A stretch of DNA of 52,101 bases, taken from the NCBI GenBank assembly GCA_900319705.1, contig ONPL01000008.1, forward strand, positions 1 through 52,101. Direction: 5' to 3'. Below are positions 423 through 40,117 of this stretch, piece after piece. The position numbers were made by a program, and so were the translations under genes. The stretch's first letter is position 1. The number at the start of each line of letters is the position of its first letter. The notes under the pieces were generated by a model, which worked only from the letters and a program-made list of their open reading frames with translations, searched no databases and had not been told where the DNA came from. Source of the stretch: an uncultured Pseudomonadota bacterium (GTDB lineage Bacteria > Pseudomonadota > Gammaproteobacteria > Enterobacterales > Succinivibrionaceae).

Positions 423-1907
423 ATGAATTTTTTAGCTGACTATACAAAATTAAACGATTTACTGGGAACAAACAGAACCTGGAAACTGCTGAGGGCTGAT
501 CGGGCTCCCATGATTATTGCTTTCCTGAAAAATCTGTTTGCCAATGAAACTGAAGTTCCCTACGGTACCGCCAGAGCCAATCTGATTGAATTTCTCAAAC
601 AGATTGAGCCGGAACTGGAGAAGGAAAATTTTGAAAACATTGTTACTTCAAAAAGTTCCGATCTTCTAAGAGAGTGGATTAACAACGGCTGGCTGACCGA
701 ACTCAACAACTGTATCACTCTGACAGATTCATCCCAGCGGGCGCTGGATTTCTGTAATCTGCTGGTGAACCGTACGGTTAATACCTCTGCAACCCACCTT
801 CAGATTTTCTTAAATGAACTTCAGCAGCTTTATGTGAGGATCGGTATTGATAAAAAGGCCAAAACATCAGAACTTATCAAGCAGAAAAAGGAACTTGAAG
901 AGGAAATCAGACTGATCCGCGAGGGACGCCAGATCCCGTTAACCGAACCGCAGAAGAAGGAGCGCATCCGCACTCTTTATGATCTGGCAAGCCGTCTGCC
1001 GCGGGATTTCCGTAAACTGGAGGAGGAAACCAGGGAAATCGACCGCAGGATCCGTGTCCGCATGATCGAGGAGAACACCACCAAGGGAAATCTGCTCAAG
1101 AGGGTTCTCAAGGAGGAGGCAGAACAGCGACAGACCGATTACGGCTCAGCCTACGAGGGCTTTTTCAAGATGCTCTGCGACAGTGAAGTTGTTGACAAAT
1201 TCAAAAGTCAGATGGCTTTTGTCCTTTCCCAGCCGATCGCGCAGTATCTTAATAAAAACGAGATTTCATTTCTCAAGAAAATGATCCCGGTGCTGCTGTC
1301 TGAATGTCAGCATGTACAGGATGTCCGCAGCAGGATAGATGAAAATCTGCGTATGTATGTGGAAAGTTCCGATTTCCAGGAAAACCGCACGGTAACGGAA
1401 CTTCTTTCCAAACTCGAACGTTTCGGTGTAATGCTTAAGGATACCACCTCCAATCTGCAGAGGGAGCGTCTTGATATTAAACTTGAAGGCGGCGGTATCA
1501 AGGTCTGCTCAATTGAAAACTTCCGTATCAAACGTCCTGACGAGATTACCGACTATTCCGGAGTTCAGGAGCACCAGAATTCATCCGTGATCAGCAATCA
1601 TATTATCAAGAGTCTTGATACGGTCCGCATCAAGGATGTAAGGGATTCGATCAGACGTACCCTGGGCAGAGCATCATCCATGACGGTTGCCGAGATTATA
1701 TCCAGGAATAAAATTTTATACGGTCTGCAGGAGGTGGTTGCATATGTTCGTGTAGCCAATGAACTCAAGGCAGAACTTGATCAGAGTCAGAATGACCAGA
1801 TAGAGGTGAAGGATTTCCGCAATCCTAACAAGATTTTAAGGATTACCATCCCGCGCCAGGTATTGAACAGCCAGAATATGCGGGACAGTGAAAGGGAAAC
1901 CCTTTAG
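423..1907 (+). CDS. jetA: JetA, Wadjet kleisin-like subunit (DUF3375)
   Basis: This 494-residue protein is the first gene of a type I Wadjet operon. JetA is the MukF-like kleisin that links JetB to the JetC SMC ATPase in the complex that recognises and cleaves small circular DNA. The N-terminus carries the DUF3375-like pattern W-KLLRADRAPMIIAFLKNLF, followed by a winged-helix-like region. Residues about 140-225 form a long charged coiled coil, and a second helical region runs to the C-terminus. The length matches the family. The start ATG has no clear Shine-Dalgarno sequence, but the conserved N-terminal motif begins soon after it and no better start exists. The call rests on the motif plus its position before DUF4194, SMC and DUF2220 genes. 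MukF is the main alternative and is ruled out by the linked jetD. Confidence 0.85.
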   Translation: MNFLADYTKLNDLLGTNRTWKLLRADRAPMIIAFLKNLFANETEVPYGTARANLIEFLKQIEPELEKENFENIVTSKSSDLLREWINNGWLTELNNCITLTDSSQRALDFCNLLVNRTVNTSATHLQIFLNELQQLYVRIGIDKKAKTSELIKQKKELEEEIRLIREGRQIPLTEPQKKERIRTLYDLASRLPRDFRKLEEETREIDRRIRVRMIEENTTKGNLLKRVLKEEAEQRQTDYGSAYEGFFKMLCDSEVVDKFKSQMAFVLSQPIAQYLNKNEISFLKKMIPVLLSECQHVQDVRSRIDENLRMYVESSDFQENRTVTELLSKLERFGVMLKDTTSNLQRERLDIKLEGGGIKVCSIENFRIKRPDEITDYSGVQEHQNSSVISNHIIKSLDTVRIKDVRDSIRRTLGRASSMTVAEIISRNKILYGLQEVVAYVRVANELKAELDQSQNDQIEVKDFRNPNKILRITIPRQVLNSQNMRDSERETL

Positions 1908-1919
1908 GAGAATAAACAA

Positions 1920-2678
1920 GTGACAGATATCAGTAACGAAAATTACAGTGAAAACACCCCTGATAACAGTCAGGGTACTGAACAGAAGGAAAATAATCCC
2001 CAGGTTTCAGAGTTCTCTGCAGAGATCCGCAATACCATTATTGAACTTCTGAAACACGGCAGTCTGACTTTTGCAGAACGTCCGAATATGTACAAAACTC
2101 TCTGTTCATATCAGAACGAGATTTCCTCATACCTTAGAAATATCAATATCCTGCTGGCCCATAACGAGGAGATGGGGGTTGCCTATATCAAGAATCTGTA
2201 CCGCGAAGAGGAGGCGGCACAGCAGAAGACCGATGATATTCTGGAGGAGCAGGATGATTTTGACGATGATTCACATTTAATCAGCTCCCGCACCCTGTCT
2301 GAGTTTGATTCCATAGTGATTCTGGTGCTGCGCAAATACTATCATGAACGGTACAACAGCGGTGAAACGAATGTCTTTCTGGATGTAGATCAGATCAGCA
2401 GTCTTCTGATCCCGTACGTCGGCGTGGCAAACTCCGCCACCAGAACTATTGAAAAAATCAACGGAACACTGACTAAACTTCAGGAAAAACGCCTGATCCG
2501 CAAGGAAAGCGGAAATTTCGGCGACCGTGTGGAGGTTCTTCCGCTGATCCGCTTTGTAATCAACGCAGAATTTATGACTCAGCTGCTGGAGGAATATCAT
2601 AATAAACTGCTTACCCGCTACACCGAGGAAGAACTGGAAAAAGTTATGAAAGCTGCTGAACAGGAGCAGGAACAATGA
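1920..2678 (+). CDS. jetB: JetB, Wadjet MukE-like subunit (DUF4194)
   Basis: This 252-residue acidic protein corresponds to JetB/MksE, the winged-helix KITE-type subunit that binds the JetA kleisin. After a disordered acidic start (about 1-35) comes the DUF4194 pattern: a leucine-rich helix, ELLKHGSLTFAERPNMYKTL, then EEMGVAYIKNL around 84-94. A second helical half contains SEFDSIVILVLRKYY and FLDVDQISSLLIPY, resembling the second winged helix of the family. The start is GTG at 1920, with AGGAG at 1906-1910 overlapping the jetA stop. The gene ends in an ATGA overlap with jetC, so the three subunits are translationally coupled, as expected for a fixed-ratio complex. Confidence 0.86.
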   Translation: MTDISNENYSENTPDNSQGTEQKENNPQVSEFSAEIRNTIIELLKHGSLTFAERPNMYKTLCSYQNEISSYLRNINILLAHNEEMGVAYIKNLYREEEAAQQKTDDILEEQDDFDDDSHLISSRTLSEFDSIVILVLRKYYHERYNSGETNVFLDVDQISSLLIPYVGVANSATRTIEKINGTLTKLQEKRLIRKESGNFGDRVEVLPLIRFVINAEFMTQLLEEYHNKLLTRYTEEELEKVMKAAEQEQEQ

Positions 2679-5600
2679 GAGATAAACAGATAGATATGTT
2701 TGAAGATCCGAATATCGAGGATCAGATTAAACTGGCGACCCTGACCGTTTACAACTGGGGTTCCTTCAACGGCCTTCATTCAATAAACATTAATCCTGAC
2801 GGAACCCTGATTACCGGTGAAAACGGTGCGGGTAAATCAACCATTATCGACGGACTGATGGTCCTGCTGTGTTCCGCAGGCCGTGTAAGCTTCAATATGG
2901 CCGCCGCCCAGGGGGATAAATCAGACCGTTCCCTGGTGTCATACATGCGCGGAAGCTACGGACGCTTCGAGGATGAATCCGGTTCCAGTGCGAAAAATCT
3001 GCGTAACGGTACTGTGGCCACCGTGCTCAAGGCAACCTACAAACATACCGCCAGCGATCGCATCGTGGTTCTGCTGGGGGTGTTCTATATCAACGGAAGC
3101 AGCAATCAGCTTTCCGATGTAAAGAAAATATATGTTATTTCGGAATCGGATATTTCCGTGAAGGAGGCTTTGAATCATTTCTCCAACAATGACACCCATT
3201 CCCTGAAGGCATATCTTAAAACCTTCAACCGGTGTTATGTATGCGATGATAACTTCAAGGAATACGAGGCACACTACAAGAATCTTCTCAATATCGAAAA
3301 CAGTAACGCACCGGCGCTGCTGTCACGTGCACTCGGTCTAAAGAAGATCGACGATCTGACCGAACTTATCCGCAAACTGGTGCTGGAACCCGGTGAAATC
3401 AAACAGGATGCGATGAATACCGTAAAACAGTTTGACGATTTGAAAACCACCCACCAGAAGCTGCTGGATGCCAGAAAGCAGGAGGCTGAGCTGGTTCCGC
3501 TTCGTGATACCCACATCGAATACCAGCGCACTGTGGAAAAGAGGGCTCTTTTTGACGAGGCGCGCAGTGAGCTCGACTGTTTCGTTTCCGGTTATGCAAT
3601 TGAGCATTATGAAAAGGAAATGAAGGATTTCAACAGCGAGATGGAAGTGGCCACGCTGAAGAAGAAGGAGCTTGAAGATAAAAAGACGGAACTGGAAAAC
3701 TACCAGAACCTCTGCCATGAAAACTATCTGAAACAGGGCGGTGATGCGATCGAAAAGATTTCATACCAGATCAGCAACACCAAAAGCAATCTGTCCCGCG
3801 TGAGTGATGATCTGCGCCGTTATAATGATCTTACCAGAAAGCTCAATCTCAAGGACGGAAGTTCCGAGGAGAACTTTACCGAAAACTTCAAAAAATACGC
3901 CCAGCTGCTGGAAGATTACGACAAACTGGAAAGTGAACTGTTTGATCAGCGTGCCAAGATTGTCAGTGAGTCTAAAAACCTTGACGGTAAAATCAAGGAT
4001 ATTACCCAGGAGATCAGACTGCTTGAGGATAAATCCGATTCCAATGTCGACTATCATTACCAGCGTGTAAGGGATGAAATTATCCAGGATTTGGATATCG
4101 ATCCGTCGGAACTGGTGTTTGCTGCCGAACTTATGGATGTTAAGGAAGAGGAGGCCCGCTGGCAGGGTGCCATTGAAAGAGCTCTCGGCGGTATTCGTCT
4201 GACTCTGCTTGTTTCCCAGCATTTCTACCGCGGTATCACAACCTGGGTAAACCAGCGCCATACCGGTCTGCATATCAGAATTCAGGTGGTTGAGCCTGAT
4301 ACCGATTATTCCGTATCTTTCGGAAACCGCGGTTATCTGCAGAAACTCAAATGGAAGAAACATCCTTTCACCAACTGGCTGCAGAACCATCTGCTCAAGC
4401 ACGATCTGGCCTGTGTCGACAGTGTGGAGGAGATGAATGATACTGAATTCTCCATGACGGTTGAAGGTCTGATCCACCGCAAGGGCGGTTTCTTTGAAAA
4501 GAAGGATCTGCGCTCAATCAACGACCGCCACGACTGGTTCCTCGGTTTCTCCAGCAAGGACAAACTGAATCTGCTCAAAAGAGAGCAGAATTTCCTCTCC
4601 TCCCAGTTGATCGAACTGCAGTCTAAAGATCTGAAACTGCTGCAGAAGAAGAGAGAATACGATGAACTGAATACCAATATAGTTCTTCTGAACGAATTCA
4701 AGCAGTTCTCCCAGATTGACACCCAGTCTCTTGAAAAGGAACTGGCTGCACTGGAGGAACAGCAGAATCTGATCCAGACCAGCCCGGATACCCTTAGACT
4801 CAAGGATATATGGGAGGAATCCAAGAAGGCGGTCTACCAGGCAAACCAGGATATTTATCTGTTTGTCGGTCAGATTGCCACTATTCAGACGCGAATTGAA
4901 AACTGTGAAAACAAACTCAAGAAATACCGCGAACTCAATCATGGAAATATCTCCAGGGAAATTGAGGAAATTATTCTGAATATTTTCAAAAAAGGTCATG
5001 TTACAGTTTCTGCCTGTTTTGAAGATCGCGAAATGGAAAAGACCGCCACCGCATTCAAGTTTGAAATCGATTCTCTTGATGCAAAGGTTAAATCCCTGTT
5101 TGCATCTGAAAGAGGTTCCATGAGTTCATTCTATACCGCATGGGCCGATCAGAAAGGATATGAGAATCTCACCCGCGATAATGTTGAAGGGTACCTTGAT
5201 CTGCTTGATAAAATCCAGAAGGAGGGGCTTCCTGCCCTGGTTGAGGAGTTCAAGGAAAAACTCAATACCGAGGTAACCCAGTCGGTGGCCAGTATCAAGT
5301 CGAAAATTGATGCTGAAATTGCTTCGATTGAAGAAAGGATCGGTATGATCAACGAGGTTCTAGCCCGTGCTGAATTCAGGGAAAACTCCTATCTTAAAAT
5401 TGTAGCCAAGAAGGTTAAATATCCGTTCATTACAGAATTTGAACGCGATGTGGACAAGGTGATGGGAATGCTGCTGTCCGATGATCATGAAAAGAGATTC
5501 GAAGCGCTTGAAAAGGTAATCAATACTCTGAATGTGGCTATCAAGAATTCCAACACCAAGGATAACATGCGACTGCTGGATCCTCGTCTGCGTATGTTCT

Positions 5601-6049
5601 TCGTTGCCCAGGAACTTGATCGTAAAACCAATGAAATCAGAGATGTTCTTGATTCCAGCAGCGGAAAATCCGGTGGTGAAAAGGAGGCGTTCGCAGGCTC
5701 CGTGGTTGCTGCTGCCCTGGCCTACGTTCTTACTCCGGCTGATGAATCGGTTCCGTCCTACAGTACCGTGTTCCTCGATGAGGCATTTTCCAATACTTCT
5801 GATGCGGTAAGTATCAGGGTTCTGCGCATATTCAAGGAACTCAAACTTCATGTCAACCTGATAACTCCGTTCAAGAATATCGATGTTGCCCGCGACTATG
5901 CCCGTTCACTTATAATTATGACCCGTGATGTTTCAAGCCACAACAGTATGGCCAGTGAACTGACCTGGGAGGAATATGATGAACAGCTTAATGCTGCACG
6001 CAGCAGGGAACTCGAAGAACTGGGAATCAGGGTAGATGAACAGCAGTAG
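2675..6049 (+). CDS. jetC: JetC, Wadjet SMC-like ATPase
   Basis: The largest operon member (1124 residues) is an SMC/Rad50-type ATPase. The N-terminal head has an aromatic NWGSFNG motif followed by Walker A GENGAGKS at residues 48-55. Two long coiled-coil arms (roughly 230-440 and 640-930) flank a hinge region. The C-terminal head has the signature GKSGGEKE at about 997-1004 and Walker B VFLDEAF at about 1032-1038, with the catalytic Glu present. In Wadjet, ATP hydrolysis drives loop extrusion that lets JetD measure and cut small plasmids. The ATG lies inside the jetB stop (ATGA). The 3' end overlaps the next gene by 14 bases, so the operon continues unbroken. Length and domain order match JetC/MksB rather than the larger MukB. 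Confidence 0.92.
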   Translation: MRDKQIDMFEDPNIEDQIKLATLTVYNWGSFNGLHSININPDGTLITGENGAGKSTIIDGLMVLLCSAGRVSFNMAAAQGDKSDRSLVSYMRGSYGRFEDESGSSAKNLRNGTVATVLKATYKHTASDRIVVLLGVFYINGSSNQLSDVKKIYVISESDISVKEALNHFSNNDTHSLKAYLKTFNRCYVCDDNFKEYEAHYKNLLNIENSNAPALLSRALGLKKIDDLTELIRKLVLEPGEIKQDAMNTVKQFDDLKTTHQKLLDARKQEAELVPLRDTHIEYQRTVEKRALFDEARSELDCFVSGYAIEHYEKEMKDFNSEMEVATLKKKELEDKKTELENYQNLCHENYLKQGGDAIEKISYQISNTKSNLSRVSDDLRRYNDLTRKLNLKDGSSEENFTENFKKYAQLLEDYDKLESELFDQRAKIVSESKNLDGKIKDITQEIRLLEDKSDSNVDYHYQRVRDEIIQDLDIDPSELVFAAELMDVKEEEARWQGAIERALGGIRLTLLVSQHFYRGITTWVNQRHTGLHIRIQVVEPDTDYSVSFGNRGYLQKLKWKKHPFTNWLQNHLLKHDLACVDSVEEMNDTEFSMTVEGLIHRKGGFFEKKDLRSINDRHDWFLGFSSKDKLNLLKREQNFLSSQLIELQSKDLKLLQKKREYDELNTNIVLLNEFKQFSQIDTQSLEKELAALEEQQNLIQTSPDTLRLKDIWEESKKAVYQANQDIYLFVGQIATIQTRIENCENKLKKYRELNHGNISREIEEIILNIFKKGHVTVSACFEDREMEKTATAFKFEIDSLDAKVKSLFASERGSMSSFYTAWADQKGYENLTRDNVEGYLDLLDKIQKEGLPALVEEFKEKLNTEVTQSVASIKSKIDAEIASIEERIGMINEVLARAEFRENSYLKIVAKKVKYPFITEFERDVDKVMGMLLSDDHEKRFEALEKVINTLNVAIKNSNTKDNMRLLDPRLRMFFVAQELDRKTNEIRDVLDSSSGKSGGEKEAFAGSVVAAALAYVLTPADESVPSYSTVFLDEAFSNTSDAVSIRVLRIFKELKLHVNLITPFKNIDVARDYARSLIIMTRDVSSHNSMASELTWEEYDEQLNAARSRELEELGIRVDEQQ

Positions 6050-6899
6050 CGGGATCGGACTGATCGGCTGTTCAGATCCCTGCGGGAAGGATGCTCTTGC
6101 AACGGTGGACCGGTTGACGGAGCATCTGAAGTCAGCCGGTCTGAATGTTTTCAGAGCTGATTATCACGGAAGTGATATCGAACCTTTCAGCAGTGAAGCC
6201 GCCTGTGCCAAGGCGCAAAAGCTCATTGAGATGTACAAAGATCCCCGGATCGGCATGATTTTTGATATATCCGGCGGAGATCTTGCCAACTCGGTGCTGC
6301 CGTATCTGGATTTTTCCGTTATCCGTGCCAGCAGTAAGCCATTCGCAGGTTACAGTGATCTTACCACGCTGGTTAATGCAATCAGCGTGCAGACCGGCAG
6401 AACCGGGATCCTTTACCAGATCAGAAATCTGGTTGATCCGGTTTACGGTGATGAGCAGACTGACCGGTTTCTAAGAACGTTCATTTCAGGCTCTGATGCT
6501 CTGTTTGATTTTGATTATCAGTTTCTGCATGGCAGTGATTTCTGCGGTGAACTTATGGGCGGTAACATAAGATGCCTGCTTAAACTGGCCGGAACGACCT
6601 GCTGGCCTGATTTTACCGGCAGGATCCTTTTTCTTGAGTCCCTCGGCGCTATGCAGCCGCAGTTGATTACTGCAATTGCCCAGCTGAAAATGCTTGGTGT
6701 TTTTGAGCAGATCAGCGGGCTGGTTCTTGGAACCTTTACCAGACTTGAATCTGCCGGTGTGCCGGTTTGGGAAATGATCCGCGGTTTTATTCCTGATCGT
6801 GTTCCGGTGGTCAAAACCTCGCAGATCGGCCATGGTCACGATTCAAGAGCGCTTAAAATAGGAGGATTCTATTCCTTCCTGCGGAGGAGGTCCGAATAA
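6036..6899 (+). CDS. S66-family serine peptidase (LD-carboxypeptidase / MccF-like) inside the Wadjet operon
   Basis: This 287-residue cytoplasmic protein has the whole S66 signature. There is an N-terminal Rossmann-like half with ISGGDLANSVLPYLDF (78-93), the nucleophile elbow GYSD with Ser107, GGN at 175-177, catalytic Glu201 in LFLES, and a His in the IGHGH motif (probably His266). S66 enzymes either remove the D-Ala from murein tetrapeptides (LdcA) or cleave microcin C-type acyl-sulfamoyl adenylates (MccF). The sequence does not tell me which. The ATG lies 14 bases before the jetC stop, and the stop overlaps the jetD start as TAATG, so it is translationally coupled on both sides. This gene is not part of the canonical jetABCD set. 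No signal peptide is seen. Confidence 0.88.
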   Translation: MNSSSGIGLIGCSDPCGKDALATVDRLTEHLKSAGLNVFRADYHGSDIEPFSSEAACAKAQKLIEMYKDPRIGMIFDISGGDLANSVLPYLDFSVIRASSKPFAGYSDLTTLVNAISVQTGRTGILYQIRNLVDPVYGDEQTDRFLRTFISGSDALFDFDYQFLHGSDFCGELMGGNIRCLLKLAGTTCWPDFTGRILFLESLGAMQPQLITAIAQLKMLGVFEQISGLVLGTFTRLESAGVPVWEMIRGFIPDRVPVVKTSQIGHGHDSRALKIGGFYSFLRRRSE

Positions 6900-8182
6900 T
6901 GCCGGTAAAGAAAGAACTGCTTCATCCCTCGGATATAATTACTGCTGTCCGCGAAAAGGAGTTTGCAGATCTGCGTCATCTGCGTGAACATCTCAGAGGT
7001 GAAAGAAAATATCCACTGGTGTTCAAACTCAATCTTCCTAAATCCTCCGATGTTCACGAAGGACTCAGAAATAAAAGTTTTATAACCGGATATACGGATT
7101 TTCAACTGGCCTGGAAGAAATTTCCTCATCAGGAAATGATCAGATCCTGTTCGCGCAACTGGCGTCTTGACGGCTGTGATACGGTTCCTGAAGCTCTTGA
7201 AATCAGCTGTTTCGGCGATTTGCGTAAACTGCTTGATGCACATCAGAACCGCTTTATTGATCTTGCGGTTAAGAGGGTAGAGCAGCTTTCCCGGGTAGCC
7301 GGGGTTGCGGAATCGGCAGTCTTCTATGCGCTGCTTGCACAGCTGGTGGGAACCACCGGCCACGGGATAGAATATTCTCTCAGCGACAGAGAGTTCAGTG
7401 ATCTTCTGATCCTGCTGCCGCAGCTTCGGGCAGGAATGGGCAGGGAACTGTATCTGCGTTCACTTCCTCTGATCAACATAGATACCAAATATATCGAAAA
7501 CCATGACAAACTTATTTATGATATTCTCTGCATTACCGGTGTACTTGATGTAGCTGCAGAAGTTCAGGGAATAACTGTCCGCAGGAAAATTGAGAATTTT
7601 CTCGGAGTTGAACCTCATCCGGACGGTTTTGTTTCAGTGGTGATTCTAGATCCGAAACTGGTCGGGGATCCTGCTGTTACCGGCAGATACCGGATCTGCA
7701 TGGTTCCTGCCGCTGAACTGAAAAAACATGCCCCGGTGGGAAGCAATCTGCTGGTGGTGGAAAACAAGGAGTCCGGTTATATGCTACCGGAAATCCCGGA
7801 TACCGTAGCGGTTTTCGGCGGCGGTAAAAATGTATCCTGGGCGGACAATGACTGGATTTGCACAAAACGAAAGGTTGCCTACTGGGGAGATCTAGATCAG
7901 TCAGGTTTTAAAATACTGGCGCAGTTCAGACATAAAGCCGGTTTTCAGATCCCTTCGCTGATGATGGATCCTGGCACGATTGAAAAGCATCTCGAAAGAA
8001 TGTGCATGGATGACAGCGGGGAAACGGTTGAACCGGCGGAAATGAGTCTGCTTACTGCTGACGAAAAGGAAGCTGTCCGGCTACTTTCTTCTCTTGAACA
8101 TTCGGTCAACCGGCTGGAGCAGGAAAAACTCAACCAGGATTATGTTGCTGAAACTGTGCTGAAGTTCTTTACCGAAAAATAA
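6899..8182 (+). CDS. jetD: JetD, Wadjet Toprim-like nuclease subunit (DUF3322/DUF2220)
   Basis: This 427-residue protein is the nuclease of the Wadjet system. The N-terminal DUF3322-like region (about 1-190, with TDFQLAWKKFPHQ near 66-78) probably contacts the SMC complex. The C-terminal DUF2220/Toprim fold has the metal-binding Glu288 in VVENKES, GGGKNVSW at 307-314, and the DxD pair Asp331/Asp333 in YWGDLDQSGFKIL. The closing pattern RLEQEKLNQDYV (405-416) also fits the family. All catalytic acidic residues are present, so the nuclease looks intact. The start ATG overlaps the preceding peptidase stop by one base. A hairpin directly follows the stop, so this is the last gene of the operon. 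Confidence 0.9.
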   Translation: MPVKKELLHPSDIITAVREKEFADLRHLREHLRGERKYPLVFKLNLPKSSDVHEGLRNKSFITGYTDFQLAWKKFPHQEMIRSCSRNWRLDGCDTVPEALEISCFGDLRKLLDAHQNRFIDLAVKRVEQLSRVAGVAESAVFYALLAQLVGTTGHGIEYSLSDREFSDLLILLPQLRAGMGRELYLRSLPLINIDTKYIENHDKLIYDILCITGVLDVAAEVQGITVRRKIENFLGVEPHPDGFVSVVILDPKLVGDPAVTGRYRICMVPAAELKKHAPVGSNLLVVENKESGYMLPEIPDTVAVFGGGKNVSWADNDWICTKRKVAYWGDLDQSGFKILAQFRHKAGFQIPSLMMDPGTIEKHLERMCMDDSGETVEPAEMSLLTADEKEAVRLLSSLEHSVNRLEQEKLNQDYVAETVLKFFTEK

Positions 8183-25525: not shown

Positions 25526-27718
25526 TTATTTCAAAAGTTCAATTTCCTGATCGGTCAGTCCGTATATTTTATTTATTTTAATATTAATTTCAGAATGTAT
25601 TTTATTTATTTCATTATCGCTGAGATTATTATTAATTATTTGATCGATCTTATTTATAAAATATTTCTGATCTTCGATATTAATTATTTTGATCGGAATT
25701 GTTTCAAGCTGTGATCTTAAAACTTTCACCGCCTTGAATTTTTTCTGATAAATAAAATTGGCAATATCGGAATTTAATATTGCTAATATATATTTAATAT
25801 TCAGATTATTGAATTTAGGAATTAATATATTTGCACTGTTTAATGACAGTGTTTTTTTATTATCATAGGAAAAAATTAAATTTTTATTAATAAATTTGTA
25901 AAATAATTTTTCAGGGGCACGGTAATACAGATCCTGGGCTACCTGCTGATATAATTCTCTTTTATATGTAATATAATTTAAATTTTTATGATTTATTTTA
26001 TATTTATCAATATTAATACCTTTTAATATTATTTCATTATTTTTATTTTTTTCCTTTTCCAGAAAACGGCTGTTGTTCCCGGTTACAATTCCAAGTGCCC
26101 AGTCCGCATTTCCCGCCAGGGAGGTACAGTTTTCCTCCGCAAATATTTTATTAAGAAGACGGTACTGATCTTCATTGATCAGCAGATCGAATTCATTCTC
26201 GAATCTTCGGTTCTGTTCGATGGTGAAATGAGTTTTCCCTGTAGTGTAGATTGTGGCATTGCTGCAGCGCAGAATTTGCGGATTGTCGTTCAGCGGTTCT
26301 TTTCTTACGGTAAGTATTATGGACGGACATGATACATTGTTGAACTGTTCACCAAGCACCAGGCAGCTGCTCACTGATGAATGAAGCGCAATCAGTTTTC
26401 TTACCGGCAGGTGGGTATATACCCGGAGAATACTTTCCGGGATGACAAAACTCAGATAATCCCCGGTTCGCATCAGACTGAGACTTTTTTCAATAAACAT
26501 CGCAAAGGATTCCACGTTCATCGGAGATGCACATTCAAATATTTTGCTGAAAGCTATTTTTTCCGGCAGGGTGTAGGAAGCGCCCCAGGGTGGATTTCCC
26601 AGAACCACCAGCGGACCGTCTGCGTTAATGTCGTTGATTTCACCGAATCTGTTCAGGAGGTAGTCGGAGCAGAAAATACGCTTCTGCAGCTCCGGCAGCG
26701 GTATGGACGGGTACTTGAGAAGAACATTGATTCTGCAAAGCACAATGGCATGTTTATCAAGATCCGACCCCCAGATTTTCTGCCACGGGATCAGATCGGG
26801 AAGATTGAGAATAAAATTTCCGCTGCCGCAGCATGGATCAAAATATCTGATCTCGCTGTCAATCATTCCTGTTTCAGCAAGGTTGGAAATCATCCGGGAC
26901 ACGATTCTGGACGGTGTATAGTAGATCCCTGATTTTTTCCGATCGCTCATGCTTGATATCGAGATGTACAGACATCCCAGCAGATCCTCTCCGTCCTCGT
27001 ATACATACATCTGGTTGAACAGCTGCGGGTAGGTATTGATAAATTCAACCGCCGCCTCGGTACAGGTGATTAACGGATCGATCAGCTGAGTGTAGCCGTC
27101 CATATTCAGTCTGCCGCCGAGATACAGTTTCAGCAGATCGAAGGAACGGCTGAAGCACATTCCGAGTCGCTGGTTGAGAAGTTGAAGAGCGCATTCGGCC
27201 ACTATCAGATTGATCTGCTGCTGGTTCAGAGTAATAGCGTATTCGTTGTTGATGAGTTCAAATATTTTTTCGATAGTCTGCTTGTTGGCTGAATATTTAG
27301 TCAGATAACTATCATAAAAATCGATCCCTTCCTTGTAGGTTTTGTTGCGTCTTGATTTGAGCCTGCTGTTATCCTGATTTTCGAGTTCCTTCATCAATGT
27401 CAGAATATTATTGCGATAGAAAAAATATTTATTTTTATAAATTTTATCAGGATTTATTTTTTTTAATTTAACCCACAGAACCGCAGTATCGGGAGAAATG
27501 TGAACGGCGTTGGCCAGTGCATGTATATCGTAGAGCTCATTAACATTAAATAATAAATGTTTATTTTTATTTAAATAATCAATTGATGATGCTGGAATAA
27601 AAATATCCTCGTCAATAATCTGTCCGTTCTGAATAATATTTTTGGTGAGAAGTTCAATTATCTGGCCGGTGGTAAGATTCAACAGACCGGCTGCTTTATC
27701 TATGGTTAAAAATTTCAT
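25526..27718 (-). CDS. N6-adenine DNA methyltransferase (Eco57I/TaqI-like), orphan, mosaic composition
   Basis: This 730-residue protein has an N-terminal helix-turn-helix-like segment (IDKAAGLLNLTTGQIIELL), a helical region, then the class I methyltransferase core. SAM-binding FDPCCGSGNFIL lies near 291-302 and the catalytic GNPPWG is at 374-379, which marks an amino-methyltransferase acting on adenine. The C-terminal third resembles a TaqI-like target recognition domain. I see no PD-(D/E)xK motif, and no restriction gene lies next to it. It is either an orphan methylase or half of a system encoded elsewhere. The first ~100 and last ~180 codons are extremely AT-rich (Ile/Asn/Lys codons), while the core has the composition of its neighbours. 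This points to recombination or transfer of the end segments. Confidence 0.85.
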   Translation of the reverse strand: MKFLTIDKAAGLLNLTTGQIIELLTKNIIQNGQIIDEDIFIPASSIDYLNKNKHLLFNVNELYDIHALANAVHISPDTAVLWVKLKKINPDKIYKNKYFFYRNNILTLMKELENQDNSRLKSRRNKTYKEGIDFYDSYLTKYSANKQTIEKIFELINNEYAITLNQQQINLIVAECALQLLNQRLGMCFSRSFDLLKLYLGGRLNMDGYTQLIDPLITCTEAAVEFINTYPQLFNQMYVYEDGEDLLGCLYISISSMSDRKKSGIYYTPSRIVSRMISNLAETGMIDSEIRYFDPCCGSGNFILNLPDLIPWQKIWGSDLDKHAIVLCRINVLLKYPSIPLPELQKRIFCSDYLLNRFGEINDINADGPLVVLGNPPWGASYTLPEKIAFSKIFECASPMNVESFAMFIEKSLSLMRTGDYLSFVIPESILRVYTHLPVRKLIALHSSVSSCLVLGEQFNNVSCPSIILTVRKEPLNDNPQILRCSNATIYTTGKTHFTIEQNRRFENEFDLLINEDQYRLLNKIFAEENCTSLAGNADWALGIVTGNNSRFLEKEKNKNNEIILKGINIDKYKINHKNLNYITYKRELYQQVAQDLYYRAPEKLFYKFINKNLIFSYDNKKTLSLNSANILIPKFNNLNIKYILAILNSDIANFIYQKKFKAVKVLRSQLETIPIKIINIEDQKYFINKIDQIINNNLSDNEINKIHSEINIKINKIYGLTDQEIELLK

Positions 27719-33576: not shown

Positions 33577-34911
33577 TTATTTCCAGTTTTTCAGGTATTG
33601 CTTTAGCAAAAAAACACAGAAATACGGAAATGTAAAAATATTTCCTTCTCTGCCGATATTACAGTCTCCAAGTTTTATGCCGTGCTTGATGTCTTTGTAC
33701 CTGGTATTGTTAACAAGCTCTGATAGTGATTTAGATTTTTTGCTGTTGGATTTTACTTCTACCGGGATCAGTTCATTTGCAGTTCTTACAAAGAAGTCTT
33801 CCTCAAGTGTTGAATCTTCTTTCTTATAGTAGAACAGTCCGAACCCCTGTTTTGTCAGGGCCTCTGCTACAAAATTCTCGTACAGTGCGCCTTTGTATAC
33901 TCCAAGGTTTCTGTTGGCCCTCAAATCATCCTGAGCTTCGTCGTCCAAAGCTGAAACGAGAAGACCTGTATCCGGATAGTATAGTTTGAATCTTGATTGA
34001 TCCTCGTTTCCTTTGAGAGGAAGTTCCGGAAAATTTAGACAGTTGCAAGAGATTACTACACCTGCGTCCTGGAGCCATTGAATACACCCCGAGTACTCCC
34101 TGGAACGTCCGTTTTTACTTACCTGGCGATATTGAAATTTTTTATTTTCCTTTGCCAACTGCGCAGGTACAGACCTATATACGCTCAGAATTTTTGTCTG
34201 ATCCAGTCCTCCTGCATATTTTCTGATATCTTCCTCGTAGTCCATTTGTATCTGACGCTGTGTTTCCAGAGAACCGGAAAAATTACCGGACTCGATGTAC
34301 TTTCGGACTACATCCGGCATTCCTCCAAGAACACAGAAATCCATAAATAGATTTTTCCATATTGAATACTCTGTTTCTGTGAATGGTTTAAGATCGATCA
34401 TATGTTCCAGAATATTTATGATCTGTTCACTGCGGTATCCTTTGGCCCGCAGGAATTCTTCAAAATCCATTGAATGCATTTCGTAATCGAGTTTGTTTCC
34501 AACACTGTTGCTGTTGATTTTTTTATAACTGATCCCGAGAAGTGACCCACTTAGAATTACATCAAATCTGGCGTCCTCTCTGAAAGCTTTTAAGGTAGTG
34601 GCAATATCAGGATTATCCTGAATTTCATCGAAGATTATTGCAGTTTCTCCAGGAATAAAATGCTTTGAAGGATCAATGAGGCTGATGTTTTTTATTACAG
34701 AGTCAACATCATAACCGTCTGATGTAACGGTCAGATATTTTTTTTCAAGTGCAAAGTTTATATAGATGACTGAACTGTATTTTTTTCTTGCAAACTGAAG
34801 AATTGATTCTGTTTTTCCGGTTTGCCGTGCCCCTTTTACTATGAGAGGCTTGTGTTCAAGGTCGTTTTTCCAGTTTTCAAGATAATTATCGATTTTTCTT
34901 TTGAGGTACAT
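33577..34911 (-). CDS. AAA ATPase with DUF4143 domain
   Basis: This 444-residue protein has Walker A VKGARQTGKT at about 25-34 and Walker B AIIFDEIQDNP near 95-105. Its C-terminal DUF4143 region contains DFFVRTANELIPVEVKSNSKK, split over two strands, a PD-(D/E)xK-like E-x-K core. Proteins of this family are common, often multicopy, and of unknown function; roles in defence or DNA transactions have been suspected. ATG 34911 (MYLKRKIDNYLENW) is the family-typical start. A longer frame to 35091 runs into the tandem repeats and is rejected. It converges with the hypothetical gene at 33542. Confidence 0.85.
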   Translation of the reverse strand: MYLKRKIDNYLENWKNDLEHKPLIVKGARQTGKTESILQFARKKYSSVIYINFALEKKYLTVTSDGYDVDSVIKNISLIDPSKHFIPGETAIIFDEIQDNPDIATTLKAFREDARFDVILSGSLLGISYKKINSNSVGNKLDYEMHSMDFEEFLRAKGYRSEQIINILEHMIDLKPFTETEYSIWKNLFMDFCVLGGMPDVVRKYIESGNFSGSLETQRQIQMDYEEDIRKYAGGLDQTKILSVYRSVPAQLAKENKKFQYRQVSKNGRSREYSGCIQWLQDAGVVISCNCLNFPELPLKGNEDQSRFKLYYPDTGLLVSALDDEAQDDLRANRNLGVYKGALYENFVAEALTKQGFGLFYYKKEDSTLEEDFFVRTANELIPVEVKSNSKKSKSLSELVNNTRYKDIKHGIKLGDCNIGREGNIFTFPYFCVFLLKQYLKNWK

Positions 34912-35053
34912 TTGGTGATCCAGTTTTTTATTATATCTGCAAACCATGCAAGATTGCGTAAAATTATTTTTACTGCTGAATGTAAACAATAAATCTAGGT
35001 GCTCCTTTATGCAATAATTATCACATAGTATAAGTGAATGTAAAATAGTAATA

Positions 35054-35235
35054 ACACATTTTATGAGGGAAAATAGTAAGTTGTCACACATTTCATGAGC
35101 GAATAAATCTGAATGTCACACATTTCATGAGCGAATAAATCTGAATGTTACACATTTCATGAGCGAATAAATCTGAATGTCACACATTTCATGAGGGAAT
35201 AAATCTGAATATCACACATTTTATGATGGAATAGG
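35054..35235. repeat. Six direct tandem copies of a 32-bp unit
   Basis: Copies start at exactly 35054, 35086, 35118, 35150, 35182 and 35214. The core is ACACATTTCATGAGCGAATAA followed by ATCTGAATGTC; each core has TCATGA or TTATGA. Outer copies (1 and 6) are the most diverged. There are no spacers, so this is not a CRISPR. The array lies 140 bases upstream of the DUF4143 ATPase and downstream of the ABC operon, where an operator, iteron or duplication hot spot are all possible. Confidence 0.92.
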
Positions 35236-35303: not shown

Positions 35304-36077
35304 TTAGATTACATATTCGATCTGGTGAGTATGCTTCATGTTGAATATTTCAAAGATCTTCTCCCGAGTTCTGAAAAAATCTTCTGAAGTTCGATCTCGT
35401 TCTGAACCGATTTCGATTTTCAGAATGCTTTTAATCATTCCGGGATTAGGAGTCATAACCACTACGCGATCTGCCAGATATACAGCTTCCTCTATATCAT
35501 GTGTAACAAAAATAATGGTTTTCTTTTCCTTCTTCTGTATGTCGAGAATATCATCCTGAAGTTTCATTCTGGTCAGAGCATCCAGAGCACCGAATGGTTC
35601 ATCCATGAATATAATGTCAGGATCGGCGGTAAGAGCCCTGGCAATTGAAACTCTCTGCTGCATGCCGCCCGAAAGCTGATTTGGACTGGCGTCGCAGAAA
35701 CTGCCAAGACCAACAAGATCCAGATATTTTTTTGCAATGGCTGTCCTTTCCCTGGCCTTGATCTTTTTATTTGATTCAAGAGCAAGTTCCACATTTTTCA
35801 GTACATTGCGCCACGGAAGAAGACCGTAGTTCTGAAATATGGTCACGTTGCGGTTTGACGGTTTTTTTACCTCTTTCCCGTCAATGGTTATGGTTCCTGA
35901 CGATGGAATACTGAAACCGGCAATTGCGTTGAGCAGCGTACTTTTGCCGCATCCTGAAGGACCGAGCAGACAGATAAATTCCCCTTTCTCGATGGAAAGG
36001 TTTACATTCTGCAGCGCTGTGAACAGTTTTCCCTTGTGGGTGAACTGCTTGTTAACATTGTTGATTTCTATATACAT
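35304..36077 (-). CDS. ABC importer ATPase (TauB/SsuB-like)
   Basis: This 257-residue ATPase has Walker A GPSGCGKST at 39-47, Q-loop NYGLLPWRNV, signature LSGGMQQR and Walker B IIFMDEPFGALD, all intact. The sequence is typical of the nitrate/sulfonate/taurine/bicarbonate class of importers. It is the last gene of a minus-strand operon starting at 40869, lying 88 bases after the permease gene. The substrate is set by the binding protein and is unknown. Confidence 0.93.
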   Translation of the reverse strand: MYIEINNVNKQFTHKGKLFTALQNVNLSIEKGEFICLLGPSGCGKSTLLNAIAGFSIPSSGTITIDGKEVKKPSNRNVTIFQNYGLLPWRNVLKNVELALESNKKIKARERTAIAKKYLDLVGLGSFCDASPNQLSGGMQQRVSIARALTADPDIIFMDEPFGALDALTRMKLQDDILDIQKKEKKTIIFVTHDIEEAVYLADRVVVMTPNPGMIKSILKIEIGSERDRTSEDFFRTREKIFEIFNMKHTHQIEYVI

Positions 36078-36165
36078 ACTTACTGTAAACGCTCCATAAT
36101 AACCTTTGATGCTACTTAAGATTGTTTAAAATCAACAATCCAACCTTTTCGCTTTTCAATAAGAC

Positions 36166-36852
36166 TTAACTTTTTATAGGAAAGTTTCTTGCGTCTATAA
36201 TAAGATATCCAAGACCTGACTGTGCGCCGATCATCTCACCGCAGACTAGAAATACCCATGCTGATCCCAGGGCAAGGTGAATACCGCTGGTTATCTGTGG
36301 AAATGAGGCTGGAAAAATTATTTTCCAGAATATTTCAACTTTACCGACCGCGAAGTTTCTTGCAACCTTAAGGTAGATTTCAGGGATGTTTTTCACTCCG
36401 GATACTGTTGATAGAAACACCGGGAAAAATGCAGCAATGAAAATTGTCACAATTGCCGGCATGTCGCCGATTCCGAACATCAGCACAATAAACGGCATCC
36501 ATGCTATCGGTGAAATCGGACGCAGCAGCTGTACCACCGGATTTACCAGTTTAAACAGAATGTCAAACCATCCGAATATAACACCCGTTACTACAGCCAG
36601 TACGGTTGCCACAATAAATCCCGCGAAGAATCTAAGCATACTGGTGTATATATGGTTTACCAGTGTTCCGTCAGCGCATATTTCAAGCAGAGCGTTCCAT
36701 GCGGATGCTGGGGATGGAAACAGGGCTTCATTTACTCCTGACAGTCTGACGGCAAGTTCCCATACCGCAATCAGACACAGAAACGAGATTGCGATATATT
36801 TCAGATTTGCAGTCTGTTTGCGCAGATGACGCAGAAGTCCTCTAGTCGACAT
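36166..36852 (-). CDS. ABC importer permease (TauC/SsuC-like), C-terminus apparently shortened
   Basis: This 228-residue membrane protein has the BPD_transp_1 organisation and the EAA-type loop around VARNFAVGKVEIFWKIIFP. Relatives usually run about 250-260 residues and end with one more helix after LGYLIIDARN. Here the frame stops at NFPIKS. Just after, in another frame of the 88-base gap, comes SLIEKRKGWIVDF, similar to the usual basic tail of these permeases. This suggests a small deletion with frameshift that removed the last helix. The start overlaps the binding-protein gene by 11 bases. Function may be impaired. Confidence 0.8.
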   Translation of the reverse strand: MSTRGLLRHLRKQTANLKYIAISFLCLIAVWELAVRLSGVNEALFPSPASAWNALLEICADGTLVNHIYTSMLRFFAGFIVATVLAVVTGVIFGWFDILFKLVNPVVQLLRPISPIAWMPFIVLMFGIGDMPAIVTIFIAAFFPVFLSTVSGVKNIPEIYLKVARNFAVGKVEIFWKIIFPASFPQITSGIHLALGSAWVFLVCGEMIGAQSGLGYLIIDARNFPIKS

Positions 36853-37879: not shown

Positions 37880-40117
37880 TTAGCTGTCCTGCGGCTGTTC
37901 CCCGGTACGCGGATCTTCTATATGATCAGGAACATACCATCCCAGAGCCTTCCTCTTGGTGATCATGTCATCCACAATCTTTTTACCCACCAGGAACGGA
38001 TCGGTGTTTACATACATTACAGATTTTAATTTTTCCATGGTCCCGTGTTTCAGAAATTCAATCACGTTCTTGGAACCGTAAATCTGAGCTTCCACACAGT
38101 GGTATGAATTTACCCCCATGAGACGGAAACCGAGTGCAGCATCAATTCCTTTTTCGTTGCTCCATTCAGGTGAAGCGAATCCGAACGGCATTTCATAAAT
38201 ATTCTTCTCTGCAGCTCCTGCAATGCCGGCAAAAATACCTGATGAGCGGGTGTTGTCTATGCATTCTCCGACATGCCATACCGGAGGTAGATCCGGCTGC
38301 AGGAATTCCTTTAGTTTGTCTCCGGCTTTCTGAATACCGGATTTTGCGCAGTAGCCGAGCTTCATGAGAGGGAATGAGGCACAGCCGTTTGACAGGATCA
38401 GTACATTGTTTTTCAGCAGAACATCGGCAACATCAATTATGGCTTTCTCGTATACAACCTTAGGATTGTTGCAACCCACCATATTGACGATTCCGAGGAT
38501 CTTCCCGCTTTTCAGCGCATCAAGCAGCGGCTGGAAACTGCCGAATTTCCTGCATACGTATTCAACGGAAAATCCGATTTCCGCTTCAACCTCGTATGGC
38601 GGAATGTACACCGGGATCCCTTTTCGCTGTTCAAAACTTTCGATGGCGCGAAGCACGATCCGGTCTGCAAGTTTACGTGCGTCGGCAATATTGCTGTGGT
38701 GGTGATCGAACTCAAATCGTTCTGCACCCGGAAGTCTTGCACTTTCCGAGGTGGTTACCACGGCGGTTCTGAAGCATTTTGCCACATCCATTATGGCCGG
38801 ATATACGTCCTGAACATCGGCAACCCATAAATCCAGAGCACCGGTTCCCAGTACCAGTTCGGCGGAAACCGCATTTGACAGCGGAATTACTCCGGCATAG
38901 CGGTACATAGCGGCAAGACCTGAACAGCAGATACCGTAGAATCTGATCCCCAGAGCCCCCTTTTCTTTAGCCAGTGCCAGCATTTGTTCCGACTGTCCGG
39001 ATTTTACAATTTCACTTACCAGCAGCGGCAGGTGGCCGTGCACGGCAATATTTACATATCCCTTTTTCAGCGCACCGAGGTTTACCATTGAGGTAACTCT
39101 GTCACCGACGCCGAACAGACAGTCGGTTGCAATATTGGTTGCGACCACACCGGTAAAGGTAAACGCCAGTCCGCAGCGCAGGAACTGCTGCATGATTGAA
39201 CGCCAGTCACCGTCAATGCCGCATCCTGATTTATGGTAGGCTTCAAAAACTTCGTGATAGGCGCTGATTGGAATAATATCCAAATCTTTCCAGGTCTCCT
39301 GTCTTTCCTTCGGTGCAAGTGCCCTGATGGTTTTATATTCATCAGGAACGGCCCTGGAGAGATCCTCGAGCAGAGTATCGGCAAGTTCAGAGGCAATTTC
39401 CTTTACATCCCTGTTTTCAGTTTCAATACCGAAGGCTTTTGCAACGGCAATTACTTTCTGTTTCCCGATAATTGGAATATCCAGCTTGCCTTCTGCCGCC
39501 CACTTCAGGTTAAGGATCACCTCCCTGGCATGCATACCGTGCTGTGCGGCACCGGCAGCTCCTGAACGCAGCAGATTGCGGGCAACAATAAGATCTGAGT
39601 CGGCTCCGCAGACACCTTTGGATGCCTTCGGTGTTATTCGGCACGGACCCATGTTGCAGATTTTGCAACAGATCCCGGCAAGGCCGAAACTGCACTGAGG
39701 CTTCTGTTTGTCAAAACGGTCGAATGCGGTATCAAACCCGATCTGTTCAGCTCTCAGAATCATTTCCCTGACGGCCGGATCAGGAGTGTTGTCGATAACA
39801 TCCTGCTTTGACGGGAAGGTTTTACGGTACTCGTTGACCGCTTTGTTGTAGTCTTTAACGAATGCCTGGGCATCCTCCACCGGATCTCCGGTACTGTGAT
39901 CTGCTTTTAAAATAACTTCCGGAATACCGTGCTCATCAAATCCGATAATATTGCGGTGTGAGTGGAAGTGATCCAGTCCGTTGTGGGTATGGAAGTGTCC
40001 GTCATGTTCATGACCGTTCAGGGCATTGATGGTGACCTTCGGATTGACCACATTTGAATGATCTGTTCCGGTCATACTGGTGATTCCGGTGATTACTAGG
40101 GAATGTTTATCCGTCAT
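37880..40117 (-). CDS. cooS: CooS-type Ni-Fe carbon monoxide dehydrogenase, divergent
   Basis: This 745-residue protein matches the catalytic subunit of anaerobic CODH. Cys142 and Cys150 (D-cluster) and Cys151, Cys154, Cys159, Cys170 (B-cluster) are all present. C-cluster ligand positions found are HGH 360-362, GICC 397-398, GCNN (Cys549), NGCA (Cys579) and GECID (Cys619). The sixth, normally Cys in a D-x-Q-C motif, is Asp437 in DVQD. A lysine near the C-terminus that helps catalysis in characterised enzymes also seems replaced. The first ~80 residues are an extension holding eight His between 36 and 54, likely nickel-binding. It lies in an operon between two small membrane proteins and an ABC importer. 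No CooC, CooF or ACS gene is present. Confidence 0.92.
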   Translation of the reverse strand: MTDKHSLVITGITSMTGTDHSNVVNPKVTINALNGHEHDGHFHTHNGLDHFHSHRNIIGFDEHGIPEVILKADHSTGDPVEDAQAFVKDYNKAVNEYRKTFPSKQDVIDNTPDPAVREMILRAEQIGFDTAFDRFDKQKPQCSFGLAGICCKICNMGPCRITPKASKGVCGADSDLIVARNLLRSGAAGAAQHGMHAREVILNLKWAAEGKLDIPIIGKQKVIAVAKAFGIETENRDVKEIASELADTLLEDLSRAVPDEYKTIRALAPKERQETWKDLDIIPISAYHEVFEAYHKSGCGIDGDWRSIMQQFLRCGLAFTFTGVVATNIATDCLFGVGDRVTSMVNLGALKKGYVNIAVHGHLPLLVSEIVKSGQSEQMLALAKEKGALGIRFYGICCSGLAAMYRYAGVIPLSNAVSAELVLGTGALDLWVADVQDVYPAIMDVAKCFRTAVVTTSESARLPGAERFEFDHHHSNIADARKLADRIVLRAIESFEQRKGIPVYIPPYEVEAEIGFSVEYVCRKFGSFQPLLDALKSGKILGIVNMVGCNNPKVVYEKAIIDVADVLLKNNVLILSNGCASFPLMKLGYCAKSGIQKAGDKLKEFLQPDLPPVWHVGECIDNTRSSGIFAGIAGAAEKNIYEMPFGFASPEWSNEKGIDAALGFRLMGVNSYHCVEAQIYGSKNVIEFLKHGTMEKLKSVMYVNTDPFLVGKKIVDDMITKRKALGWYVPDHIEDPRTGEQPQDS

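Follow-up and report, generated by a model that had tools for sequence, protein, structure and literature searches.

An aspartate at a C-cluster ligand position of a CODH-like protein

The rumen bacterium Ruminobacter (Succinivibrionaceae) carries a gene for a protein resembling carbon monoxide dehydrogenase (CODH) in which an aspartate stands where a cysteine ligand of the Ni-Fe-S C-cluster is expected, and this raises the question of whether such a protein oxidizes CO or serves some other reaction. The gene lies in a 52,101-nucleotide stretch of DNA (contig ONPL01000008.1), here called the window, in a run of genes with the order m4-m5-cooS-binding protein-permease-ATPase that share one direction and are separated by short gaps (Table 1). 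Elsewhere in the window are a Wadjet-type operon at 423-8182 (plus strand), made up of JetA, JetB, JetC, an unmatched protein of 287 aa resembling an LD-carboxypeptidase, and then JetD, and a gene for a Type II DNA methyltransferase-like protein at 25526-27718 (minus strand).

Table 1. Features of the CODH-like locus, with positions in the window
Feature	Position	Strand	Remark
ABC ATPase, 257 aa	35304..36077	(-)	
ABC permease, 228 aa	36166..36852	(-)	last ~35 residues of relatives absent
NitT/TauT-type substrate-binding lipoprotein, 330 aa	36842..37834	(-)	closest solved relative 3UN6
CODH-like protein, 745 aa, clade B / structural group B-1	37880..40117	(-)	His-rich N-terminus
Asp437 codon GAC, at the position of C-cluster ligand Cys333	38807..38809	(-)	from alignment
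Small membrane protein m5, 100 aa	40184..40486	(-)	conserved beside CODH-like gene
Small membrane protein m4, 120 aa	40507..40869	(-)	conserved motif E51-H52-x2-H55-x-E57

Residues ~110-727 of the CODH-like protein match solved CODHs, with 6t7j as the best match (E 1e-126), and the protein also matches the Pfam family Prismane (PF03063). The initial annotation had read an aspartate in place of a C-cluster cysteine, and this is borne out: the reading frame gives DVQDVYP, and HMMER and MAFFT alignments place Asp437 at C333 of Carboxydothermus hydrogenoformans CODH-IV (6elq), C343 of 6t7j, and C333 of 6ytt. As had also been claimed, the remaining C-cluster ligands are present in the alignment with structurally known CODHs, namely His362 (equivalent to His261), Cys398 (Cys295), Cys549, Cys579, and Cys619, so that four of the five C-cluster cysteines and the ligand histidine are kept and the complete set of five cysteines plus histidine is broken only by the change of Cys333 to Asp. 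All of the D- and B-cluster cysteines (142, 150, 151, 154, 159, and 170) are retained, as are the acid-base residues His193 (His93) and Lys656 (Lys563). The catalytic lysine near the C terminus had been described as apparently lost, which is wrong, because Lys656 aligns with Lys563 and this position is lysine in 90 of 90 sequences of clade B, the CODH clade to which the protein belongs; the His93 equivalent is conserved in the same 90.

At the alignment position of Cys333, all 90 clade-B sequences, which come from four phyla, have Asp, and all 24 canonical sequences have Cys. Since the aspartate is fixed in this way, sequencing error, chance, and pseudogene formation are ruled out as the source of Asp437. 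Cys448, which had been put forward as a possible substitute ligand, is ruled out as well because in most canonical CODHs a separate residue, C344, already corresponds to it.

The window's genome has a single full-length CODH homologue, as does each of the 17 clade-B carriers that we scanned. A search of that whole genome with TIGR01703 for hybrid cluster protein (HCP) gave no match, the CODH-like gene included. With TIGR01702 the CODH-like protein scores 476.9 bits, below the cut-off of 478, and most other clade-B proteins score just above it; because clade-B scores straddle the equivalog cut-off, the model does not separate the clades and annotation of clade B as CODH on this basis is arbitrary. 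Viral contigs searched for the CODH-like family gave nothing, and a promoter and terminator scan did no better than shuffled sequence.

Placement in clade B

Group B-1 of clade B has been defined by Asp or Glu for the second C-cluster cysteine together with a His-rich N-terminal region, and NitT/TauT ABC transporters (COG0715/0600/1116) adjoin all clade B groups, according to Inoue et al. 2019 (PMC6344411). All three B-1 traits are present here, that is, Asp at the second C-cluster cysteine, a His-rich N terminus, and adjacent NitT/TauT genes. The match to the group extends to retention of the His, Lys, and other ligands and to a two-Cys D-cluster region, and the difference lies in the host, which here is Ruminobacter. 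Thus the Cys333-to-Asp swap is already published for clade B, and the CODH-like protein is a further member. The functional context is the new part. Neither the m4-m5 genes nor the further fixed changes in the pocket nor the linkage to cysK, all presented below, are described in the portion of Inoue et al. 2019 (PMC6344411) available to us. A 2026 survey lists clade B without any characterized protein.

In our tree, which was built without the accessions of Inoue et al. 2019, clade B is monophyletic (support 100/100), sits at the end of a very long stem with 2.34 changes per column, and includes Ruminococcus flavefaciens and R. albus. The CODH-like gene is carried by 13 of 56 Succinivibrionaceae genomes, and the main Succinivibrionaceae clade-B sequences branch among those of Bacillota, which is consistent with transfer between gut bacteria.

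Fixed changes around the active site

Comparison of the 90 clade-B with the 24 canonical sequences gave 24 positions (numbered after 6elq) that are fixed differently. Besides Cys333, they include the residues that we take, on an offset of one, to be D219 and I567 of CODH-II, which are replaced by Phe319 and Ala660. The residue preceding Cys526 is Ser in canonical sequences and Glu618 in clade B; near Cys295, N298 is replaced by Leu401 and M302 by Tyr405; near Cys476, T474 is replaced by Asn577 and A478 by Ser581; and G580 is replaced by Cys674. D219, I567, the Ser before Cys526, N298, M302, T474, and G580 vary little or not at all among canonical CODHs. By sequence distance alone, the enrichment of fixed swaps near the ligands is borderline (p 0.03-0.06). 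An AlphaFold2 model based on 53 close relatives has a mean pLDDT of 66.8 and confirms the CODH fold only, by Foldseek match; because residues 436-438 are below 50, the model is uninformative on the metal site.

It is well supported from the alignments that the active site is modified, and more strongly than the initial annotation had suspected, because besides the Asp437 ligand further near-invariant canonical residues are replaced by ones fixed in clade B. A reaction other than CO oxidation is plausible; both acid-base catalysts are still present, and the gene context described below (cysK, MetY, sulfate-assimilation genes, and nickel-linked membrane proteins) bears on the reaction only indirectly. 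Compared with CODH-II and CODH-IV of C. hydrogenoformans (clades F/E), the clade B protein shares the scaffold (~35% identity, Foldseek TM 0.8 on target), the B and D clusters, His93, Lys563, and five of six C-cluster ligands, whereas it differs in having Asp for Cys333, Phe for D219, Ala for I567, Glu for Ser before Cys526, and a His-rich N-terminal extension. The protein could be a functional CO dehydrogenase in which Asp takes the place of the thiolate on one cubane iron and hardly alters the chemistry, so that the low CO of the gut is oxidized. The other ligands and the His93 and Lys563 equivalents, kept in 90 of 90 sequences, would fit this, as would the existence elsewhere of carboxylate-ligated 4Fe-4S clusters, which are found in Pyrococcus ferredoxin and in DPOR. 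However, D219 and I567 are lost, a Glu adjoins the Ni-binding Cys, other swaps are fixed, and almost all clade B operons are reported to lack maturases (PMC13056359), and we regard a functional CODH as improbable. The clade B protein most likely has a function other than that of a CO dehydrogenase.

A single Cys-to-Glu ligand swap, at another ligand than here, goes with loss of CO chemistry in CooS-V (clade D-1, PMC9311411). The two proteins have in common the CODH scaffold and the replacement of one C-cluster Cys by a carboxylate, whereas in CooS-V the swap is Cys295 to Glu, the acid-base His is Tyr, and both the clade and the gene context are others. Hybrid cluster proteins belong to the same Prismane superfamily and differ in ligand set and context. 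The Cys295 position of our protein is Cys398, not Glu, and membership in CooS-V or HCP is ruled out by the ligand pattern and the tree. It is still conceivable that the clade B protein resembles CooS-V in working as a hybrid-cluster-like enzyme, with an Fe-S-O cluster that would turn over hydroxylamine, NO, or peroxide when the cell is under stress, since the ligand swap to a carboxylate goes with such a cluster in CooS-V (PMC9311411). This is quite improbable, because CooS-V and HCP replace Cys295, which is kept here, and CooS-V types keep Cys333, which is lost here; moreover, clades B and D lie far apart in the tree, and the gene context of clade B has no sign of nitrosative stress.

Membrane proteins, transporter, and nickel

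Residues 1-60 of the CODH-like protein contain 10 His, with HxH repeats (HEHDGHFHTH...HFHSH). Clustering the genes of clade B loci identified two small membrane proteins, m4 at 47 and m5 at 43 of 80 loci, both found by tblastn at 0 of 20 canonical or clade-D loci; neither matches a Pfam or NCBIfam family. A genome search also located m4 in genomes or places where the CODH-like enzyme is missing, and we dropped the idea that the pair is exclusive to this enzyme. Without a CODH-like gene, m4-m5 lie beside urease (L181, 4832-5454), beside the urea ABC transporter gene UrtA (L182, 5097-5750), and beside LarE-LarB-LarC (L188, 4799-5482); at other m4 places, as in Eubacterium eligens, the neighbors give no nickel hint. 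In Lachnoanaerobaculum a urease operon that includes CbiM follows the CODH-like gene. The company that m4-m5 keep with urease, UrtA, and LarBCE, together with the His-rich N terminus, suggests that the clade B protein is a nickel enzyme, and the m4-m5 pair is a candidate nickel-handling family.

The binding protein of the linked ABC transporter has four conserved histidines, H60, H128, H155, and H160, in common with 3UN6, which Inoue et al. 2019 (PMC6344411) call metal-binding, so the transporter may carry metal; sequence comparison gave no assignment of its substrate. Among Succinivibrionaceae, the binding protein is present in 13 of 13 carriers and 0 of 31 non-carriers of the CODH-like gene, and it is missing from several clade-B carriers overall. 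The window's permease ends in ARNFPIKS and a stop codon (36060-36300, minus strand), so that ~35 residues present in every relative compared are lacking, and no other frame ahead of the ATPase gene encodes them; the shortening is either a real deletion or an assembly fault. Directly after the ABC ATPase gene and outside the conserved module lies a gene for an AAA_14/DUF4143 ATPase (PADLOC candidate PDC-S01; 33577-35091, minus strand).

Linkage to sulfur genes

A cysK gene lies within 12 kb of the CODH-like gene, on the same contig and always on the same strand, in 10 of 35 carrier genomes against 0.51 expected under random placement, and within 4 kb in 7 of 35 against 0.17 expected; the other 25 carriers have no cysK within 12 kb, in some cases on a short contig, and the carriers do not count as independent samples. 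The linked cases come from at least five host groups: Succinivibrionaceae, Ruminococcus, Pseudobutyrivibrio, a Thermoguttaceae MAG, and a deeper clade B lineage (L145/L146), in which cysK adjoins the CODH-like gene and there is no transporter. The window's own 52-kb contig has no cysK. In several lineages cysK, MetY, the PatB C-S lyase, or an Rrf2 regulator sits beside the module in varying order. When any sulfur gene nearby was counted, clade B loci (16 of 80) were no richer than canonical or clade-D loci (3 of 20, p 0.76); cysK alone was near 12 of 80 and 0 of 20, respectively. A MetY- or MetB-like gene is present within 8 kb, non-adjacent, in 3 of 10 CooS-V-type (clade D) loci (L164, L167, and L174). 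A search upstream of 19 loci for SAM and T-box riboswitches gave none at the gathering threshold.

In Pseudobutyrivibrio xylanivorans the module lies within an operon for sulfate assimilation that contains CysWA, AprAB, CysDN, MetY, a sulfite-reductase protein, TusA, thioredoxin, ThiS, ThiF, a JAMM protease, and siroheme genes; another MetY and a CysK come next. Since this operon is already equipped with a sulfate transporter and the steps leading to sulfide, it is more likely that the module gives access to a further source of sulfur. The ThiS, ThiF, and JAMM protease genes of the same operon (L152, 8455-9928) suggest that cysteine or homocysteine is made by way of a sulfur carrier. The window's genome has a comparable sulfite-reductase and siroheme cluster with CysD on another contig, and across Succinivibrionaceae a sulfite-reductase domain occurs in 8 of 13 carriers and 0 of 31 non-carriers (p 7e-6). 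The domain is missing from several carriers, R. flavefaciens and R. albus among them, where a sulfite product would thus be a dead end.

These gene neighborhoods bear on two further explanations. Under a hypothesis of Inoue et al. 2019 (PMC6344411), Ni2+ or another metal enters through the ABC transporter and is stored and inserted by the His-rich end, giving a self-maturing nickel enzyme that is perhaps still a CODH, with the sulfur neighbors being incidental. The His-rich N terminus, the four histidines common to the binding protein and 3UN6, and the association of m4-m5 with urease and LarBCE all speak for such metal supply, but it would leave unexplained both the linkage to cysK, MetY, PatB, and Rrf2 and the position in the sulfate-assimilation operon, the binding protein is missing from several carriers, and pocket residues are replaced; we consider it rather unlikely. 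A redox or metabolite sensor without turnover, as proposed for the other deviant clades C and D (PMC13056359), is highly improbable for clade B, in which the electron-transfer clusters and acid-base residues are fully conserved and most loci have an importer and biosynthetic genes, not a regulator, in the operon.

A possible role in sulfur acquisition

We tentatively favor a reading, to which we give not quite an even chance, in which the clade B protein would be a redox enzyme that derives from CODH, depends on nickel, and serves to acquire sulfur rather than to oxidize CO. Its active-site cluster would be a carboxylate-ligated variant of the Ni-Fe-S C-cluster, and its nickel would be handled by the His-rich N terminus and the m4-m5 membrane proteins. 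Electrons could enter via the B and D clusters and reduce a sulfur compound, often one imported by the linked ABC transporter, in a reaction pocket that the change of I567 to Ala may have widened. The sulfide or sulfite released would then be fixed by CysK and O-acetylhomoserine sulfhydrylase (MetY). The substrate could be a sulfonate or a small sulfur anion.

There is a precedent for such repurposing. Isethionate reductase, IsrBHDK, is nitrogenase-like and works with the SsuCAB transporter in anaerobic sulfur assimilation (PMC11423573), and the reuse of the nitrogenase scaffold in Isr and Mar would be matched here by a CODH scaffold turned to sulfur acquisition. The likeness to IsrBHDK and MarBHDK is an analogy in working only, in that an O2-sensitive metalloenzyme is repurposed for sulfur assimilation and is linked to a NitT/TauT-type transporter and sulfur genes, whereas the protein families are unrelated. 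By this analogy, the clade B "CODHs" could be nickel-dependent, oxygen-independent desulfurizing reductases. In anaerobes of the rumen, gut, and mouth they would release sulfur from an organosulfur compound or sulfur anion taken up by the cell and so supply the synthesis of cysteine and methionine, and m4-m5 would be a previously undescribed nickel-handling membrane pair; this more specific proposal is possible but doubtful.

Of the 1,380 putative CODH genes counted in a survey of the human gut (PMC11338639), 493 fall in clade B, a group annotated as CO dehydrogenase yet without a characterized member. If the reading of sulfur and nickel is true, many "CO utilizers" of the gut and rumen would be mis-annotated, a second ancient metallocluster scaffold would have been adapted for anaerobic sulfur acquisition, and the function of clade B would be testable by growth of cultured species on single sulfur sources.
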